Shown: positions 3,843-32,010 of the stretch, piece by piece
How the letters are laid out: every line of letters starts with the position of its first letter
How positions within the stretch are numbered: the first letter of the stretch is position 1
Assembly (NCBI GenBank): GCA_028873525.1
Contig: JAGWIM010000010.1
Span: forward strand, 1-36,007
Source of the DNA: Pseudomonadota bacterium
GTDB taxonomy: Bacteria > Pseudomonadota > Alphaproteobacteria > Rickettsiales > SXRF01
DNA length: 36,007 bases
Direction: 5' to 3'
The notes under the pieces: generated by a model
Told to the model about the DNA's origin: nothing
The model's database searches: none
The model's input: only the letters and a program-made list of their open reading frames with translations
Translations under genes and position numbers: made by a program

Positions 3843-4296
3843 GCATTGGCTGATTAAATCCGAACCCTCCGTCTGGTCGTGGGCGATGCAGCGGGCGGCG
3901 GGCGCCCAAGGCACGGCGTGGACCGGCGTGCGCAACCACCTCGCCAGGCAGCATCTGATGGCGATGAAACACGGCGACCGCGCGTTTTTCTATCATTCGA
4001 ACGAGGGCAAGGACATCGTCGGCATCGTGGAAGTGATTCGCGGGCATTACCCCGACCCGACGGCGGAAAAAGGCGAACCCTGGCTAGTGGTGGATGTGAA
4101 GGCGGTTAGCGCGCTCAAAACGCCGGTGACGCTGGCTGCCATCAAAGCCAACCCGAAACTTTCAAAAATGTCGCTCGTCACCTCCGCCCGCCTCTCCGTC
4201 CAGCCGGTGACCGAGGCGGAATGGGAGGTGGTGTGCGAGATGGGGGGGTGGCCAATTCCGGCGCAGGTTCATTCATTCTTAACCCCCGTATGTTAA
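3838..4296 (+). CDS. EVE domain-containing protein (likely ATT start overlapping upstream stop)
   Basis: KHWLIKSEPSVWSWAMQ...GTAWTGVRNHLARQHLMAMKHGDRAFFYHSNEGKDIVGIVEV is EVE/PUA-like; no ATG in frame before the conserved N-terminus. Confidence 0.85.
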   Translation: MKHWLIKSEPSVWSWAMQRAAGAQGTAWTGVRNHLARQHLMAMKHGDRAFFYHSNEGKDIVGIVEVIRGHYPDPTAEKGEPWLVVDVKAVSALKTPVTLAAIKANPKLSKMSLVTSARLSVQPVTEAEWEVVCEMGGWPIPAQVHSFLTPVC

Positions 4297-4380: not shown

Positions 4381-5202
4381 ATGTTCAATGGCACCGGCAA
4401 AAGGGCGGAACGCGGCGCCGAAGCGGACGCTCCGGAAATAACCGATGCGCCACCGAAGACGCCGGAATTCCCGCTGTTTTTCAGCAAGCCGTCGGTTATC
4501 AACTCGGAGCGCCATGCCAGGGCCGGCATACGCGCGAACCTCCCGCCGACTTTTGCCCGCGCGACCAACTCCATTCCGCTTACCGTGGGAGAATTCATCG
4601 AGGCCGCCAAATATTATCCTGTCGTTTTCACCGGCAATGATCCGGTGATGCCTGTTGTCATCGTCGGGCTGGAACAGAATAATTATTTTGTTGGCCAGGA
4701 CGGCAAATGGAGGGAAAATACCTATATTCCGGCCTATGTGCGAAAATATCCGTTCGTGTTCATGGAAACGCCGGGATCCGATCAGTTGACGCTGTGCATC
4801 GATGAGGGCGCGCCGCAATTTACGGCGCGGGCGGAAGGCGACGATACCCCCCTCTATGAAGCCGGCAAGCCTTCGGCATTTACACGCAATGCGCTGGCGT
4901 TCTGCACCGCTTTCCAGGAGCAGCACGCATTGACCCGCCAATTCTGCAGCAAGCTGAAGGAGCTGAATCTGCTGGCGCCCAATCGTTCGGATGCCAAGCT
5001 TGATACCGGACGCATGATTCAACTGGGAGGCTTTCAGGTCATCGATCAGGAAAAGCTGGGGCGACTGCCGGGCGATACCATCGGCGAATTGCATAAACAG
5101 GGTTGGCTGCCGCTGATGTACTACGCTCTATTGTCCACGTCGAGCTGGCGTAACCTGGTCAATCTGGCCGCCGAGAGCGAACGCAAAAATGAATCGGATT
5201 GA
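4381..5202 (+). CDS. SapC family protein
   Basis: KYYPVVFTGNDPVMPVVIVGLEQNNYFVGQDGKWRENTYIPAYVRKYPFVF is SapC-like. Confidence 0.85.
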   Translation: MFNGTGKRAERGAEADAPEITDAPPKTPEFPLFFSKPSVINSERHARAGIRANLPPTFARATNSIPLTVGEFIEAAKYYPVVFTGNDPVMPVVIVGLEQNNYFVGQDGKWRENTYIPAYVRKYPFVFMETPGSDQLTLCIDEGAPQFTARAEGDDTPLYEAGKPSAFTRNALAFCTAFQEQHALTRQFCSKLKELNLLAPNRSDAKLDTGRMIQLGGFQVIDQEKLGRLPGDTIGELHKQGWLPLMYYALLSTSSWRNLVNLAAESERKNESD

Positions 5203-5468
5203 TAATCCGCGGGCATTACCCCGGCCCGGCGGCGCAAAAAGGCGAACCTGCCTGCGCGAAGCCGGGGCTTCGCTCCGGCGTAGGCAGGCCGTGGGCGGTG
5301 GATGTGAAGGCGGGTAGCGCGCTCAAAACGCCGGTGACGCTGGCTGCCGTCAAAGCCAACCCGAAACTTTCCAAGATGTCGCTCGTCACCTCCGCCCGCC
5401 TCTCCGTCCAGCCGGTGACGGCAGCGGAGTGGGAGATTGTGTGCGGGATGGGTGAAATTTCAAACTGA
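5199..5468 (+). pseudogene. Partial duplicate of the EVE-gene 3' half, interrupted in-frame by a palindromic repeat
   Basis: IRGHYPGPAAQKGEP-[ACAKPGLRSGVGRP]-WAVDVKAGSALKTPVTLAAVKANPKLSKMSLVTSARLSVQPVTAAEWEIVCGMG parallels IRGHYPDPTAEKGEPWLVVDVKAVSALKTPVTLAAIKANPKLSKMSLVTSARLSVQPVTEAEWEVVCEMG of the intact gene. Confidence 0.85.
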
Positions 5469-7750: not shown

Positions 7751-8683
7751 ATGGAAAATCTCATCATCACCATCGTCGGCGGCACGGGCTTCCTCGGGCG
7801 GTATGTCGTGCGCGATCTGGCGCGGGCGGGTTACCGGCTGCGCGTCATCGCGCGCCATCCCGACGCGGCGCTGTTCCTCAAAACGGCGTGCAGTCCCGGC
7901 CGGATTGTGCTGGAGCGCGGCGACATCGTGCGCCCGGAATCGCTCGCCCATAAAATCGGCGGTTCCTGGGCGGTCGTCAATCTCGCCGGCATTCTCCATG
8001 AATCAGGCCGGCAGACCTTTTCCGCCGTTCATGCGCGCGGGCCGGAAAAGCTCGCCGAGATGGCGCGCGCCGCCGGCGTTTCGCGCTTCATCCACGTCTC
8101 GGCGCTCGGCGTCGGCGAAAGCCAAGGCTCGACATATGCACGATCGAAACTGCTCGGCGAAAAGGCGGTGCTGGCGGCGTTTCCCTCCGCCACCATCCTG
8201 CGCCCTTCCATCATCTTCGGGACGGAAGACAATTTCTTCAACCGCTTCGCGCAGATGGCCAGGTTTTCTCCCGTCTTGCCTTTAATCGGCGGCGGGCGCA
8301 CGCGCCTCCAGCCGGTATATGCCGGCGATGCCGCCAAGGCCGTCCTCGCCTGCCTCGCCCGCGCCGACGGCGCCGGCTGCATCTATGAACTCGGCGGCCC
8401 GCAGATTTACACCTTCCGCGAGCTGATGGAATACATCTTACACGTCACCGGCAGGCGCCGCGCGCTGGTTTCCGTGCCGTTTAGCGTCGCCTCATGCAAG
8501 GCGGCGTTCCTTGAATTGCTGCCCCGTCCGCCGCTGACGCGCGATCAGGTGCGGCTGCTGCGCGCCGACAACGTGGTGGCCTTAAGCGCGTTGACCTTCG
8601 CCGACCTCGGCATCTCGCCCACCGCGATGGAAATGATCGTACCGGAATATCTGTCGCGCTTTCACCGGAAAATGGCGGCATGA
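7751..8683 (+). CDS. NDUFA9-like / NAD(P)-dependent epimerase-type SDR
   Basis: IITIVGGTGFLGRYVVRDLARAGYRLRVIAR, YARSKLLGEKAV, ILRPSIIFGTEDNFFNRFA. Confidence 0.88.
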   Translation: MENLIITIVGGTGFLGRYVVRDLARAGYRLRVIARHPDAALFLKTACSPGRIVLERGDIVRPESLAHKIGGSWAVVNLAGILHESGRQTFSAVHARGPEKLAEMARAAGVSRFIHVSALGVGESQGSTYARSKLLGEKAVLAAFPSATILRPSIIFGTEDNFFNRFAQMARFSPVLPLIGGGRTRLQPVYAGDAAKAVLACLARADGAGCIYELGGPQIYTFRELMEYILHVTGRRRALVSVPFSVASCKAAFLELLPRPPLTRDQVRLLRADNVVALSALTFADLGISPTAMEMIVPEYLSRFHRKMAA

Positions 8684-21038: not shown

Positions 21039-21115
21039 CGGAGTGTAGCTCAGCCTGGTAGAGCACTACGTTCGGGACGTAGGGGCCGGAGGTTCGAATC
21101 CTCTCACTCCGACCA
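21039..21115 (+). tRNA. tRNA-Pro(CGG)
   Basis: CGGAGTGTAGCTCAGCCTGGTAGAGCACTACGTTCGGGACGTAGGGGCCGGAGGTTCGAATCCTCTCACTCCGACCA; loop TTCGGGA; acceptor stem CGGAGTG/CACTCCG. Confidence 0.96.
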
Positions 21116-22621
21116 TTTTACAATATCATCACATTTGGCGAACTCGCTAAAGGGAAACCGCATTGAATACTCTAGCTTTTTCCCTTTTAATTTTAGGTTC
21201 AAAAATACAAAATTGAGCAGATCGCGTTTTTCGGCGAAGTTTGAACCCCGGAACCGGTCAAGCGCGCCTGCGGATAAATTAAGTAGGTCTATTAGGCGGT
21301 TAGTAAAAGCGTCATCTGCCTCGTCATAACTGCGTATAAGGTCGTCAATTTCGTACTGCCGATCTTTGAGCCTGCGTTTCTTGGCCTCAAACTCTTCCTT
21401 GCTAATTACCTTCTCCATCATCAGGTCAAGGAGCTTATCGAGCTTTTCTTCAATCTCGGTATGTTCTTTTTTCAGCACCGCCGTTTGCTTTATATGGAAT
21501 GCCTTTTTGCTTTCGTTCGTTTGAAAGATGTGTGAGGTAATATTCTGGAGCAGCTTTTCATTCTTTATAGCCAGCGTTTCAAGCGCGGCCTCCACCTGTT
21601 CGAGCACCTGTTCTTCGCGTACCCACACTTTCTTTTTTGGATCGTCAGGATTCCATGATGAAAGGTAAATCCATTCATCCCTGCCGCCGTGCTGATAAGT
21701 TTTGCTATGGCGTTCGGCAGAAATAGTTTTGCCGGTCGTGGCGCAGGTTAAGATGCCACGGAACACGAAGTCAATGCCCGCATATTTAAATGGTTTTTTC
21801 TCCCAGCCCAAACGCACCTCCTGACAGCGATCAAATAGCGCTTTCGATATTAACGGAGGATAGCGATGTGGGTGTTCTTCGCCATTCTTTTTTATTTTCA
21901 TCACCCCGTAATAAAACGGATTGGTGAGAATTTTATACATCTGCGATTTATTGACCAGCTTTTTTAACCGCTTAGAATTGGTCAATCCCCATTCCTGCGC
22001 GAATTCCATCATCTCACCCAGCGTATGGCTGCCGGTGGAATAGGTTTCATAAATACGCGTTACCAACGCCGCGCGCGCTTCGTCGACAATGACATCGGCT
22101 CTGCCGCGCTCATCGCGTGTATTCAAATAGCCGATAGGTGCCAATCCGATACATTCGCCTTTTTTCAGCTTTTGGCTTTTAGAGCGATTGACGTTATCGC
22201 GCAACGAATCGACATAACTCTGCGCCATCATGACGCTCATATTCCACATCAACCTTTCCATAGATGTGGAATTCTGGTGGATGATGCAATTTTCGACGTG
22301 AAAATGTAGTTCGATTTTCCCGCGATTGACCAGGTCATCCAGCAACGGCGTTTCCTTAAAGCTACGCTGGATGCGATCAACTTTATCGGCGACAATGGCA
22401 ATCCTTGTCCTCTGCTGCTTGGCGAAGGCGATCATCTCCATGAAGTGCTTGCGGTCGCCATTGGTCGATGATTCGATGATGGTGAAGGATTTTAATACCT
22501 CAAGCCCTTTTCGCCGACAATATTCTTGCAAGCGATTGAGCTGAGCGTCAATCGAATAACCTTCCTCCTGTTCACGCGTCGACACGCGCGCCAGGATGAT
22601 AGCTTTAGTTGCTTGTGTCAT
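21104..22621 (-). CDS. Large serine recombinase (resolvase + recombinase + zinc-ribbon-like/coiled coil)
   Basis: AIILARVSTREQEEGYSIDAQLNRLQEYCRRKGLEVLKSF ... IVADKVDRIQRSF. Confidence 0.93.
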   Translation of the reverse strand: MTQATKAIILARVSTREQEEGYSIDAQLNRLQEYCRRKGLEVLKSFTIIESSTNGDRKHFMEMIAFAKQQRTRIAIVADKVDRIQRSFKETPLLDDLVNRGKIELHFHVENCIIHQNSTSMERLMWNMSVMMAQSYVDSLRDNVNRSKSQKLKKGECIGLAPIGYLNTRDERGRADVIVDEARAALVTRIYETYSTGSHTLGEMMEFAQEWGLTNSKRLKKLVNKSQMYKILTNPFYYGVMKIKKNGEEHPHRYPPLISKALFDRCQEVRLGWEKKPFKYAGIDFVFRGILTCATTGKTISAERHSKTYQHGGRDEWIYLSSWNPDDPKKKVWVREEQVLEQVEAALETLAIKNEKLLQNITSHIFQTNESKKAFHIKQTAVLKKEHTEIEEKLDKLLDLMMEKVISKEEFEAKKRRLKDRQYEIDDLIRSYDEADDAFTNRLIDLLNLSAGALDRFRGSNFAEKRDLLNFVFLNLKLKGKKLEYSMRFPFSEFAKCDDIVKWSE

Positions 22622-23052: not shown

Positions 23053-23442
23053 CTACCCTCCCTGCCGCGCATTCAGGCGGGTAACGATTTTCAGCAGCGC
23101 CATGACCCACATTTGCCAGGCTTTGGTACGGCCACAGCCGATTCGCCAGCATATTTGCTTCCAGTAAACACGCTCGGCCCGGAGCCATACCAGCCGCCGT
23201 TCGTCTTCATCATCGAGCAGGAAAATCCAATGGATGGTTTCTTCCATGCGGCTTATGGCTTCCGCAGATGGAGGCCCACGGCGCAACGGTTCCTGTTCGG
23301 CCTGCATCTGCTCCATAATGGTGCGCACGATGGGCGGCCAGGTGTTGAAATATCCTTTTACCGTGACCGGCGGCATGCGCCGGAGCGTTTTTGCCGCTTC
23401 CTCGAAACGGTCGGCAATATCGGTCATTGTCCATTTTTCCAT
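23053..23442 (-). CDS. DUF6362-like phage/mobile-element protein
   Basis: MTDIADRFEEAAKTLRRMPPVTVKGYFNTWPPIV; family call from memory. Confidence 0.65.
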   Translation of the reverse strand: MEKWTMTDIADRFEEAAKTLRRMPPVTVKGYFNTWPPIVRTIMEQMQAEQEPLRRGPPSAEAISRMEETIHWIFLLDDEDERRLVWLRAERVYWKQICWRIGCGRTKAWQMWVMALLKIVTRLNARQGG

Positions 23443-23445
23443 TGT

Positions 23446-24657
23446 TTAGCCCTCCGTGGTGAGTTCGACGCCCGTCACGCGCGCGCCGGTTTTCGTGGCC
23501 TCTGCAAACCAGCGGTTGAGGTCGGCCAGGTAGTGTCGGGTGATCCAGTCGACGACGAATTTGCTGGGGCATTGCAGCGTGGCTAATGCCCTGCCTGAAT
23601 GCGACTTCGTGTTGGTGACCACGGTATTGGCCAGCCAGCTGCGGCAGGTATCCCGGCTGTATTTTTGCTCAAAGGAACGCAGCACGCTGCCCCACGCTTC
23701 CTGCAAAGCGATGACGTTGCAGGCGGGCGGCTTCGGTGGATGATTGCCGCCTGAAAATCCGCCCTCGAGGATTTTAGCGACGTGGTCGGAAGATTCGACG
23801 GCCCAGTTCAGGTCAATCGTCCAGCCTTTGCCCTCGATTTTGCCGAGGCAGAAATCCGATGCGCCGATGACCTGGCAGTAATACTGCCATGCCCGCATGT
23901 CCTGCTGGAAATCTTCCAGCCATCGCAGCGTCATCTGCTCTTTGCGTTTTGGCGTTAAAATCGCCTTCTGCCCTCTGGTGAGCTTACTTTGTACCTCTGA
24001 ATTCCAGACGTCGAGCATTTGTAAAAGGGTGCCGCTAGCGTCTGGCTTCTGATCGGTGGCTTGTCCACCGATCTTCTGTTTTTCCCTCTCGCGCTCTCCC
24101 TTTTCTTCTCTCGCTCTAAGTTTTTTATCTGAATCTTTTTTTAAATCTTTTTCTGCTTCTACCTCTGCCTCTTTTTCTGGTTCTGCACTCTGCGATCTGT
24201 TTTCTGCTTCTGAATTCTGTAATCTGTTATCTCTCTCTGTATCTGTCTTTTTTTGCGTACTTTTTTGTTGCGCGGCGTTTCCCGGCGTTGCATCGCGTTG
24301 CATCGCGTTGCATGACGCTGCATCGCGTTGCGTCTTGGCGCGGGATTTCTTGGAACGCTCGGTGGGGCTTGTGTATTGACGCTTATCCCAGCTGGTAAGG
24401 CGGTTTTCTGCCGTGAGCAAATTCTTTTCGTAAAAGCCGTTAATGATTTTGATAACGTCTTCTGTTTCAAGATTTTGCAGCACGGCGATTTGCTCGGCAT
24501 CAATCACCACGTTGCCGCGCGGATTATTCTGCGACGCCATATCGAGCAGGCACACCCACACCGATAGCACGCTGGCCATCGGCTGCTTGGTGCGGTGCGC
24601 GATCACCTTTAATTTGGTGTCCTGCGGCATACCGTGATAAGCCCTGTACCAGTCCAT
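23446..24657 (-). CDS. Replisome-organizer-like replication protein with C-terminal DnaA N-domain-like region
   Basis: N-term DWYRAYHGMPQDTKLKVIAHRTKQPMASVLSVWVCLLDMAS; middle SDFCLGKIEGKGWTIDLNWAVESSDHVAKILEGGF; C-term ALQEAWGSVLRSFEQKYSRDTCRSWLANTVV...LQCPSKFVVDWITRHYLADLNRWF. Confidence 0.75.
   Translation of the reverse strand: MDWYRAYHGMPQDTKLKVIAHRTKQPMASVLSVWVCLLDMASQNNPRGNVVIDAEQIAVLQNLETEDVIKIINGFYEKNLLTAENRLTSWDKRQYTSPTERSKKSRAKTQRDAASCNAMQRDATPGNAAQQKSTQKKTDTERDNRLQNSEAENRSQSAEPEKEAEVEAEKDLKKDSDKKLRAREEKGEREREKQKIGGQATDQKPDASGTLLQMLDVWNSEVQSKLTRGQKAILTPKRKEQMTLRWLEDFQQDMRAWQYYCQVIGASDFCLGKIEGKGWTIDLNWAVESSDHVAKILEGGFSGGNHPPKPPACNVIALQEAWGSVLRSFEQKYSRDTCRSWLANTVVTNTKSHSGRALATLQCPSKFVVDWITRHYLADLNRWFAEATKTGARVTGVELTTEG
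24281..24330. repeat. 10-bp phased direct repeats (catcgcgttg type), candidate iterons
   Basis: cccggcgttg/catcgcgttg/catcgcgttg/catgacgctg/catcgcgttg at exact 10-bp spacing. Confidence 0.8.
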
Positions 24658-24903: not shown

Positions 24904-25208
24904 GCGGGCCTCCGTTGGTTAAAACGGTTCGTTTGTTCGAACTGTTCGGACAGAAAGCTGCATGACGACACGGGGGGACGGCGTGGACCTGGATGGGACT
25001 TTGGTGAGGGATGAAAGGGGGATAGAAATTCGTTCTTACGTTCTAAAATGAGGCAAAATTAGCCTGTCAACAACCTTGGGTGGGGATGAAGTGGTACATA
25101 GGGTGGGGATGAAAGGGGGATGGAAAAAATCCCGTCATTGAAAAATAAACGGAAAAGCCCCTTGAAGGGGGACAAGGCGGGGATAAAGATGGATCAGGCG
25201 CTACTTAT

Positions 25209-28652: not shown

Positions 28653-30215
28653 GTGCAGAAATTTTCAAATACACAGGGCAAAGAGCAAAAGGTGCCGCCT
28701 AAGAAAGCGGCTATGTATGTGCGCATGTCCACCGACCACCAGAAATACTCCACGGAAAATCAGGCCGACGCCATCCGCGCCTATGCTGACCGCTACCATA
28801 TAGAAATCATTAAAACCTACACCGACTCAGGAAAAAGCGGCCTGAGCATCGATGGCCGCGATGCGCTGAAACAATTGATTGATGATGTACAATCCGGTGT
28901 AACGGATTTTTCCATTATCCTGGTACTGGATATCACGCGCTGGGGCCGGTTCCAGGATGCCGACGAAAGTGCCTATTATGAATATATATGCCGCCGCGCC
29001 GGTATTGACGTGCGATACGTGGCAGAGCAATTTGAAAATGACGGCAGCCTGAGCGCCACAGTCATTAAAAGCATGAAACGCGCCATGGCCGGGGAATATA
29101 GCCGCGAGCTTTCAGTCAAAGTATTTGCTGGGCAATGCCGCCTGATCGAGCTTGGCTATCGCCAGGGCGGCCCTGCCGGGTATGGGCTGCGCCGCGTATT
29201 GATCGATGAGCGTGGGGAACAAAAAGCGGAGCTTAAGCGCGGCGAACATAAAAGCCTGCAGACCGACCGAGTAATCCTGATGCCGGGGCCGGAGGAAGAA
29301 ATAGAAACCGTGCGCTGGATATACAGTTCCTTTTGCGACGGCATGCCGGAAAGCAAAATTGCAGCGCTGCTCAATCAACGCGGCGTCATTACCGATCTTG
29401 GCCGCGCCTGGACGCGCGGCACTGTGCATGAGGTGCTGACCAATGAGAAGTATATCGGCAATAACATTTTTAACCGCACATCCTTCAAACTGAAAAAGCG
29501 CCATGTTGTCAATACGCCCGATATGTGGGTGCGCAAGGAAAAAGCCTTTCAGCCGGTCATCGAGCCCAGCTATTTTTATGTGGTGCAGCAGATTATTCTG
29601 GAACGCAGCTACCGATTTAGCAACGAGGAAATGTTGGAAAAGCTGCGCCAGCTGCATGATCGCCAGGGCTGGCTGTCCGGGGTGGTTATCAATGAAGCCG
29701 AGGATATGCCTTCCAGCAGCGCCTATCAGCACCGCTTTGGCAGCCTGATACGCGCCTACCAGCTGATCGGCTTTACGCCCGCCCATGATTACCGCTATAT
29801 CGAAATCAACCGCCGCCTGCGCCAGCTGCACGGCGATATCGTTAAGGATACCATTGCTAAAATCGAGCAGTTGGGCGGCAAGGTGCGCATCGAGCCGCAA
29901 ACAGAATTGCTGGTCATCAACGAAGAATTGAAATGCTCGCTGGTGATTTGCCGCTGCCAGCAGACACAGGCGGCGGCCTATCGGTGGAAAGTGCATCTTG
30001 ATACCGGCCTGCTGCCGCATATCACCATCGCCATACGGATGGACGCGCGCAATGAAAAACCCATGGATTACTACCTGCTGCCTGCGCTCGATATCGAAAA
30101 CCCCAGGCTGCGCCTGGCGGAAAGCAATGGGCTGGCGCTTGATGCCTATCGCTTCGATGATCTTGAGGTATTTTTTCAACTAACCGAACGTATTGCCATA
30201 GAGGAAGTCGCATGA
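28653..30215 (+). CDS. Large serine recombinase (second)
   Basis: KKAAMYVRMSTDHQKYSTENQADAIRAYADRYHIEIIKTYTDSGKSGLSIDGRDALKQLIDD. Confidence 0.93.
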   Translation: MQKFSNTQGKEQKVPPKKAAMYVRMSTDHQKYSTENQADAIRAYADRYHIEIIKTYTDSGKSGLSIDGRDALKQLIDDVQSGVTDFSIILVLDITRWGRFQDADESAYYEYICRRAGIDVRYVAEQFENDGSLSATVIKSMKRAMAGEYSRELSVKVFAGQCRLIELGYRQGGPAGYGLRRVLIDERGEQKAELKRGEHKSLQTDRVILMPGPEEEIETVRWIYSSFCDGMPESKIAALLNQRGVITDLGRAWTRGTVHEVLTNEKYIGNNIFNRTSFKLKKRHVVNTPDMWVRKEKAFQPVIEPSYFYVVQQIILERSYRFSNEEMLEKLRQLHDRQGWLSGVVINEAEDMPSSSAYQHRFGSLIRAYQLIGFTPAHDYRYIEINRRLRQLHGDIVKDTIAKIEQLGGKVRIEPQTELLVINEELKCSLVICRCQQTQAAAYRWKVHLDTGLLPHITIAIRMDARNEKPMDYYLLPALDIENPRLRLAESNGLALDAYRFDDLEVFFQLTERIAIEEVA

Positions 30216-31108
30216 TCAAACAGCATAACGCCACTATCAAAATCATCCCGGTGGACAGCGTCCATATTCTCAATCCGCGCGTGCGCAACGCCAAGGTTTT
30301 TGAGGGGATTGTCGATAACATCACCAAGGTGGGGCTTAAGCGCCCGATTACCGTTACGCATTCCCGTTCTAGGTTCGAGGGCAAGGAATATGACCTGGTG
30401 TGCGGCCAGGGACGGCTGGAAGCCTTTATGGCCTGCGGGCAAAAAGAGATTCCGGCTATGGTTATCGACGCCAGCGAGGAACAGGCGCTGATCATGAGCC
30501 TGGTGGAAAATGTCGCGCGCCGCAAACATAAGCCGTTTGAACTACTGCAGGGCGTCGAAATATTGCGCAAGCAAGGCTATGACGCCAAGACTATCGCCGC
30601 TAAAATCGGCCATAAGCCGGAATACACTATGGGCGTTATCAAGCTACTCGAACAGGGTGAGGAAAAGCTGGTGTCGGCGGTGGAAGCCGGGCATATCCCG
30701 ATTACCCTGGCCATCAACATTGTGCAGTCGCCGCAGAATGAGCAGGCCGCGTTGCAGGAAGCCTATGAAACGGGCAACCTCAGCGGCCATAAATTCATGA
30801 AAGCAAAGCGCCTGCTGGAAGACCGCAAAAACACTGGCAAAGTTTTGCGCGACAAAAGGAAGCGCGGGCCGCAGCGCCGCACTGAAGATGTGTCGGCGCG
30901 CGAGATACTCAAAGCCTATAAGCGGGAGGTGGAACGCAAACGCCTGCTATCGCGCAAGGCGGATGTGGTCAATACGCGGCTATTATTCCTGGTGGAAGCC
31001 ATGCGTTGCTTGATGCAGGAAGACCATTTTACCACGCTGCTGCGTGCAGAAAGCCTGGAAACGATGCCCAAACAGCTGGCCGGGCTGCTGGCAGCAAAGA
31101 GAGGATAA
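30212..31108 (+). CDS. ParB/RepB-like partition protein 1
   Basis: LKRPITVTHS...DLVCGQGRLEAFMACGQKEIPAMVIDASEEQALIMSLVENVARRKHKPFELLQGV; starts 4 nt inside recombinase stop. Confidence 0.88.
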   Translation: MIKQHNATIKIIPVDSVHILNPRVRNAKVFEGIVDNITKVGLKRPITVTHSRSRFEGKEYDLVCGQGRLEAFMACGQKEIPAMVIDASEEQALIMSLVENVARRKHKPFELLQGVEILRKQGYDAKTIAAKIGHKPEYTMGVIKLLEQGEEKLVSAVEAGHIPITLAINIVQSPQNEQAALQEAYETGNLSGHKFMKAKRLLEDRKNTGKVLRDKRKRGPQRRTEDVSAREILKAYKREVERKRLLSRKADVVNTRLLFLVEAMRCLMQEDHFTTLLRAESLETMPKQLAGLLAAKRG

Positions 31109-31110
31109 CC

Positions 31111-32010
31111 ATGTCAAAGCAACCGCCCATTGGATTCGATACGGATACCATAACGCTAAAACTGGAGGATATTTCGCCGTTGCGGATCGTAACTCCCGCC
31201 ATGCGCGAGAGCGATAAATTCCAACAGATAGTAGCCTCCATTCGGGAAATCGGCATCATCGAGCCACCCGTAGTGGCGCGCAAGCAAAAGAATCAGGAAA
31301 AACATTTGCTGCTAGATGGCCATTTGCGTGTCGAAGCCTTGAAGGAACTGGGCGAAAAAGAGGTGACATGCCTGGTATCCACCGACGACGAAGCCTTCAC
31401 CTACAACAAATATATCAGCCGCCTGTCGACCATCCAGGAACACCGCATGATCGTGCGTGCCGTTAAGCGCGGCGTATCGGAGGCGAAACTGGCGCGGGCG
31501 CTTAATCTCAATGTCGCCAATATAGTGCGCAAGCGCAATCTGCTGCAGGGTATTTGCCCGGAGGCAGTTGAATTGCTCAAGGATAAGATGGTGGCCAGCA
31601 ACGTGTTCAAAATCATGCGGCGCATGAAAGCGGTGCGACAAATCGAAGCCGCCACTTTAATGAACGATGCGAATATTTATTCGTTTCCTTATATCCAGGC
31701 CTTGCTGGTCGGAACGCCAAAGGCGCAGCTGGTCGATCCAGAAAAACCAAAGACAGTAAAAGGTTTGGATGATGAACAGATGGCGCGCATGGAGGCGGAA
31801 ATGGGCAGCCTGCAGGGAGAATACCGGCTGATCGAGGAAAGCTACCGCACCAACGTGCTGAATTTGACGGTGGCGCAGACTTTTCTTTCCACGCTGCTTG
31901 GTAATGCGCGGGTGACAAAATACCTCACCCAGCATTACCCGGAATTCCTAACGCAGTTCCAGAAAATTGCTAGCATGACATCGCTGGGCGGCGGCGAGGT
32001 CACGTCATAG
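31111..32010 (+). CDS. ParB/RepB-like partition protein 2
   Basis: GIIEPPVVARKQKNQEKHLLLDGHLRVEALKELGEKEVTCLVSTDDEAFTYNKYISRLSTIQEHRMIVRAV; start MSKQPPIGF with GAGAGGA upstream. Confidence 0.88.
   Translation: MSKQPPIGFDTDTITLKLEDISPLRIVTPAMRESDKFQQIVASIREIGIIEPPVVARKQKNQEKHLLLDGHLRVEALKELGEKEVTCLVSTDDEAFTYNKYISRLSTIQEHRMIVRAVKRGVSEAKLARALNLNVANIVRKRNLLQGICPEAVELLKDKMVASNVFKIMRRMKAVRQIEAATLMNDANIYSFPYIQALLVGTPKAQLVDPEKPKTVKGLDDEQMARMEAEMGSLQGEYRLIEESYRTNVLNLTVAQTFLSTLLGNARVTKYLTQHYPEFLTQFQKIASMTSLGGGEVTS

Follow-up and report, generated by a model that had tools for sequence, protein, structure and literature searches.

The replication initiator gene and its neighborhood

The window, i.e. 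the whole stretch of 36,007 nucleotides analyzed in this study, contains on the minus strand a replication initiator gene (23446-24657) whose 403-aa product matches PHROG replication initiation families. Profiles and a structural model divide this product into an N-terminal helix-turn-helix-like domain, a linker whose coding sequence carries a repeat array, a helical middle part and a C-terminal part resembling DnaA domain I. The AlphaFold model, derived from 24 sequences with a mean pLDDT of 60, has confident N-terminal (pLDDT of about 70-90 for most of residues 12-90) and C-terminal domains and predicts residues 95-206, the linker, to be disordered. Codons 1-105 (24343-24657, minus strand) encode the N-terminal domain, which was classified as phage-replisome-organiser-like from the PHROG families, the model and PF09681 (Phage_rep_org_N). 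The latter profile was found in 17 out of 22 relatives with a best E-value of 1.4e-6, and was not listed for the window protein itself. The C-terminus, encoded by approximately codons 316-403 (23449-23712, minus strand), is a candidate contact to the host DnaB. A DnaA N-terminal domain profile matched the C-terminus of all 22 relatives, and that of the window protein was matched by PF11638 (E 8.8e-11) and by 4tps (E 1.2e-7). The structure 4tps, a DnaA domain I, was also the top Foldseek hit for this domain, with a probability of 1.00 but an E-value of 0.017.

Protein searches found one copy of the initiator in its own genome. A four-unit pattern scan of this genome gave no matches, but was uninformative on second copies, since the array of the window itself fails the exact pattern. 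No confirmed relative resulted from searching viral contigs with the single initiator protein.

A DUF6362 (phrog_6836) gene, conserved in this position, is located just downstream of the initiator gene (23053-23442, minus strand) and is followed by a gene for a large serine integrase (phrog_95; 21104-22621, minus strand). This gene order is common to the window and two relatives (G004 and L341). Two other relatives carry a tyrosine-type integrase (phrog_1) downstream instead. In our interpretation, the replicon that hosts these genes is an integrative element, and the draft genome containing it measures 2.0 Mb. Elsewhere in the window, two adjacent ParB/RepB-type partition genes (30212-32010) have as neighbors an MmeI-type restriction enzyme and another serine recombinase, the second in the window, in which no ParA was recognised. 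The ORFs at 3886-4296 and 5199-5468 share a near-identical segment (KTPVTLAA.KANPKLSKMSLVTSARLSVQPVT), and the latter has an extra in-frame stretch (ACAKPGLRSGVGRPW). This pair is perhaps a partial duplication with repeat insertion. Upstream of the initiator operon, in the window and in part of the relatives, there are intergenic CATCCCC-type repeats, mostly on one strand (24907-25208, minus strand, in the window). They represent an unexplained second cis element and possibly a rival origin or an operator.

A phased pentamer array under DNA-level constraint

The part of the gene that encodes the predicted disordered linker contains an iteron array (24262-24331, minus strand), as established from the sequence, TRF and homologues. 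It is composed of seven 10-bp units, each with the core pentamer GCAAC and a drifting 5-bp spacer. On the coding strand, units 1 and 2 read GCAACGCGAT (24331-24322) and GCAGCGTCAT (24321-24312), units 3 to 5 GCAACGCGAT, GCAACGCGAT and GCAACGCCGG, and units 6 and 7 GAAACGCCGC (24281-24272) and GCAAC(AAAAA) (24271-24262), with the codon phases 2,0,1,2,0,1,2. TRF reported a period of 10 at 24285-24331 (4.7 copies) and a derived period of 30. Sequence and TRF thus confirmed the units of 10-bp period which the original prediction had placed inside the replication ORF, and the array was delimited to the seven units given above.

Three further identical pentamers follow at 10-bp spacing in the window array, compared to at most two in 40 Markov-simulated windows. 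The same simple count was tied at one other site of the window, around position 7809 on the plus strand. Identity at lags of 10 and 20 bp was 0.644 versus 0.47 expected from synonymous recoding (P ~5e-5), and shuffling of the synonymous codons within the linker gave a P-value of only 0.08. Hence, the single window sequence is merely suggestive, and the homologues are decisive. DnaA boxes were rejected as an explanation of the array, since only boxes with one mismatch occurred, none of them within the initiator gene; an exact DnaA box was not found in the window.

The relatives were drawn from the same order (Alphaproteobacteria/Rickettsiales MAGs), and 24 distinct linkers were analyzed. A lack of linker repeats in homologous genes would have refuted the original prediction. 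Instead, the array of pentamers phased at 10 bp is retained in 24 out of 24 homologues whose linker is intact, and is degenerate in a few of them (L009 and L016). Identity within the 24 linkers was 0.54, 0.53 and 0.55 at lags of 10, 20 and 30 bp versus 0.21-0.36 at the other lags tested. This corresponds to a Z-score of 19 against synonymous recoding and of 10 against synonymous permutation; under either null, none of 1000 sets reached such a value.

Four versions of the pentamer (GCAAC, GTAAC, GTGAC and GTCAC) occur in the family, and pentamers are found in each of the three reading frames. In all 24 genes, T or C at pentamer base 2 in frame 0, where the exchange is non-silent (Val/Ala), matches the silent T or C in frame 1 (Fisher P 7e-7, not corrected for phylogeny). 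GTAAC and GTGAC never occur in the frame in which they would create a stop codon and are replaced by GAAAC there, whereas GCAAC and GTCAC, which are harmless in this frame, do occur in it. Between units in different frames, pentamer positions 1, 3, 4 and 5 agree at 0.75-0.96 and spacer positions 7-10 at only 0.27-0.45. Conserved pentamers with drifting spacers cannot be explained sufficiently by plain duplication of whole 10-bp units. The argument that a repeat of 10 bp, which is not a multiple of 3, must be constrained as DNA was borne out by the frame, synonymous-site and stop-phase evidence. As judged from these sequence comparisons, the constraint on the array is one that acts on DNA.

Within the gene, the array is followed by an asymmetric tract (24056-24260), a candidate unwinding region defined by its composition and by CAGA counts. 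The original prediction had described about 200 bp of flanking pyrimidine-rich and AT-rich DNA. The composition held, with 77% pyrimidine on the plus strand and an A+T content of 59.5%, and no other part of the window has a 205-bp stretch as rich in pyrimidines as the one overlapping the tract (0.785 at 24060, versus at most 0.654 elsewhere). The strand view had to be corrected. Since the gene is encoded on the minus strand, the tract is purine-rich with CAGA/ACAGAT repeats (CAGA/AGAT) on the coding strand and located 3' of the array. An asymmetric tract follows the array in 23 out of 24 family members. In these 23 tracts, CAGA was observed 298 times, compared to 73 and 239 expected from synonymous recoding and synonymous permutation, respectively. 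That the tract constitutes the unwinding or single-strand recognition part of an origin is an inference, as is unwinding itself.

The predicted basic helix and its relation to the pentamer class

Directly after the N-terminal domain, a basic helix of the form ER-x1-xx-x4-R is predicted with low model confidence. In the window it is SPTERSKKSRAK, encoded by codons 97-108 (24334-24369, minus strand), with Ser at residue 102 as x1; its assignment rests on the model (low pLDDT) and on covariation. Within the family the residue x1 follows the pentamer in 24 out of 24 cases, namely Ser with GCAAC (12), Met with GTGAC (5), Val with GTAAC (4) and Ala with GTCAC (3). All five loci that were not used for spotting this relation agree with it (L014, L046, L292, L299 and L341), among them L292, whose array mixes GTAAC and GCAAC. 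In a set of diverse viral sequences, GTCAC was accompanied by K, Q or A at x1, GTAAC by V or Q, and GCAAC by S. Mutual information between x1 and pentamer was 0.92 in this set (n=52), versus a shuffle maximum of 0.55. The helix motif had been fixed before x1 was tabulated, and relatedness was not corrected for. Two GCAAC entries of this set are probably non-initiators, and for one GTAAC entry the motif hit is spurious.

Pentamer classes differ despite similar N-terminal domains, both between the window and L003 and L004 (85-87%) and between L036 and L042 (97%). On a tree of the N- and C-terminal domains at least 8 class changes were required, and 5 out of 5 independent pairs on supported branches agree with the relation, although five such pairs alone are too few for significance. 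The genes of L036 and L042 are 91-100% identical along their DNA except for a block of about 135 bp (62-73%) containing helix and array. Since these two genes differ mainly in the block holding both elements, helix and array seem to be transferred together, and the sequences suggest an exchangeable cassette of reader plus target. Physical linkage could explain part of the association of helix and pentamer within the family. A functional reading code is favoured because the x1-pentamer relation is also found in distant initiators. Among four genomes with two initiator copies of known class, three carry copies of different classes (G004, G059 and G328) and one carries GCAAC twice (G027). A fifth two-copy genome (G323) has two GCAAC copies, one truncated at a contig end. 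Differing classes in two-copy genomes give a hint of an escape from incompatibility.

We take the helix and its targets to resemble eukaryotic bZIP basic regions, as a lead only. The bZIP half-sites GTCA, GCAA and GTAA show a degeneracy as in the pentamers. PDB searches with the helix peptide returned nothing, and the peptide is too short to decide on this match.

The same layout was found in distant phage initiators, such as those of Pseudomonas phage Marin (four copies of GTCACGCAAT), Escherichia phage Tritos, an Aeromonas phage, ctOK67 and cyanophage Cy-LDV1. In viral contigs we scanned for four GTCAC pentamers at fixed spacing without reference to genes. At spacings of 10 or 11 bp, the matched ORFs mostly belonged to replication initiation, DnaD-like, replisome organizer and primosomal families. 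With 9-bp spacing, tail-fibre and collagen-like families were matched, and the 25 top-ranking families included none for replication initiation; with 12-bp spacing, most matches were to tail fibres and a few to initiators. An excess of raw counts at period 10 over 9 and 12 was not supported. Each of these three periods gave at least 120 matches. It is gene context and not count that separates periods 10 and 11 from 9 and 12. Counts per family do not represent the union over proteins, and no exact fraction is claimed. The array is not universal either, since many matches in a small, pattern-blind sample drawn by PHROG profile lacked an obvious array; some of these matches were weak, or the wrong ORF was possibly chosen.

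Short-period tracts of other kinds, e.g. ACAGATAAAGATAAAG, AGAGAAGAGAAG and CCTAGCCTAGCC, often come after the array in viral initiators. Five viral loci (L059, L064, L093, L126 and L162) have tracts of 5-bp period, such as CCTAGCCTAGCC or CCGTGCCTAGCCGTGCC, directly after the array. As 5 is not a multiple of 3, these may likewise be constrained as DNA. In the viral set, purine richness was 0.58 before as well as after the array and thus not specific to the latter side. It was higher around arrays of period 10 or 11 than around those of period 9 or 12. In a further five viral loci of the PHROG 15931 type (L056, L105, L116, L119 and L136), GTCAC arrays apparently lie in the coding region of the N-terminal domain and not in the linker. 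A pattern of GTAAC,GTAAC,GAAAC,GTAAC was found in few viral records, several of them being DUF3489 genes and not initiators. DUF3489 (PF11994) genes with 10-bp phased arrays were located at L410:10295-10789, L416:5824-6348, L418:2171-2644 and L420:2757-3284, the first with GCAAC and the others with GTAAC versions including the stop-avoiding GAAAC. An initiator might use these arrays as decoy, satellite or second binding sites.

A putative origin inside the initiator gene

Lambda and Stx phages are established examples of repeats beside an AT-rich region within the gene of the initiator; the central part of their gene O contains both the repeats bound by the initiator and an A+T-rich tract for unwinding (PMC7466680). 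SPP1 oriL is another established example, with direct repeats and an AT-rich DUE inside gene 38, the gene of the origin-binding protein (PMC6316719). By analogy, the present case would work like these. The original prediction had compared the locus with lambda O. The layout agrees in that, within the initiator gene, iterons are followed by a tract that is asymmetric and richer in A+T, and to this extent the analogy is supported by inference. The unit type differs, with 10-bp direct units around a pentamer core here and four and six larger iterons in lambda and Stx phages, respectively. In contrast to lambda O, the window protein has a DnaA-domain-I-like C-terminus and its basic helix tracks the iteron sequence. 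PF04492 (Phage_rep_O, lambda O) was not significant (one out of 22 relatives only, E 0.083); the 'O-like' profile PHROG 345 matched at 9.8e-15. The arrangement of direct repeats beside an asymmetric, A+T-richer tract is shared with SPP1 oriL. SPP1 has a separate helicase loader and helicase (gp39 and gp40), and none of this type was recognised in the window. The N-terminal domain class is shared with phage replisome organisers (PF09681, PHROG 3729/21423/9474), of which many members in the viral scan carry phased pentamer arrays, but their C-terminal domains vary (DnaT, Phg_2220_C and others), with DnaA domain I in the family of the window. Bacterial oriC also combines a double-strand initiator site, the DnaA box, with an adjoining short-period, strand-specific tract, the DnaA-trio or DnaD recognition element (PMC10201434). 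In contrast to the trinucleotides of the DnaA-trio, the tract in the window has periods of 5-6 bp, and there is no evidence of a binder. In the literature searched we found nothing relevant on GTCAC-type phage origins, and neither 10-bp pentamer arrays with stop avoidance nor the helix-pentamer relation nor the one-block swap, which does not exclude a prior description.

The explanation we prefer, with a probability of roughly 0.8, is that the array forms the iteron half of a replication origin which is contained in the coding sequence of the cognate initiator itself. Owing to the 10-bp phasing, the seven GCAAC-type pentamers would face the same side of the DNA helix, be occupied by several molecules of the initiator and be read at least partly by the basic helix ER-S-KK-S-R behind the N-terminal domain. 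The complex of initiator and array would then open or capture the adjoining purine/pyrimidine-asymmetric CAGA-repeat tract, and the DnaA-domain-I-like part would recruit the host replicative helicase DnaB. The sequence data themselves demonstrate the array, its phasing, its constraint at the DNA level, its association with initiator genes and the covariation of helix and pentamer. Binding, unwinding, helicase recruitment and origin activity are inferred here in the absence of binding or replication data. Further points against this explanation are the initiators without an obvious array, the arrays in DUF3489 genes, the degenerate arrays of some homologues, the lack of an exact DnaA box and the upstream CATCCCC region, to which origin functions could also belong.

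Iterons of plasmids are often also used for control. At this locus, the array might be an initiator-binding site for autoregulation, copy control or incompatibility, with the true origin elsewhere, e.g. in the upstream CATCCCC region at 24907-25208. At least three copies of CATCCCC indeed precede the gene in the window and in L282, L284, L287, L288, L290, L299 and L302, almost always on one strand. Among the 21 relatives examined, the other 13 have a single such repeat or none, whereas the array in the linker is kept in 24 out of 24 and is followed in 23 out of 24 by an asymmetric tract, as an origin would have, which makes a role restricted to control unlikely. It is also conceivable that another protein, encoded by the element or the host, binds the array and that the initiator helix covaries through physical linkage alone, because the helix adjoins the array and both can move as one block, so that linkage could hold them together within the family. 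We regard this as improbable, since the relation of S, V and A(K) to GCAAC, GTAAC and GTCAC recurs in otherwise distant viral initiators, and the class changes on the domain tree, with all independent pairs agreeing, also speak against it. A purely peptide-level or slippage origin of the repeat, without any DNA function, could draw on the tolerance of disordered linkers for repeats and on the weak synonymous permutation result of the window alone. It is largely refuted by the homologue-wide synonymous nulls, the silent covariation, the replacement in the stop phase, the drift of the spacers and the different gene contexts of periods 10/11 and 9/12, and only a very slight chance remains for it.

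Beyond this locus, we tentatively propose, at somewhat less than even odds, that in many initiators of phages and integrative elements specificity resides in a cassette of about 120-150 bp that can be exchanged. Its reader would be the bZIP-like basic helix ER-x1-xx-x4-R and the target an array of GNNAC pentamers in phase with the DNA helix, with a simple residue-to-base relation of S-GCAAC, V-GTAAC, M-GTGAC and A/K-GTCAC. Origin specificity would be switched by a single recombination event, perhaps escaping incompatibility with a co-resident relative. Most origins of phages and integrative elements are unmapped. If the proposed relation is true, the origins of a large set of initiators could be located from sequence alone, and the cognate repeat could be predicted from one amino acid. 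With reader and target lying within about 150 bp, origin specificity, incompatibility and recombinational switching would become directly testable.
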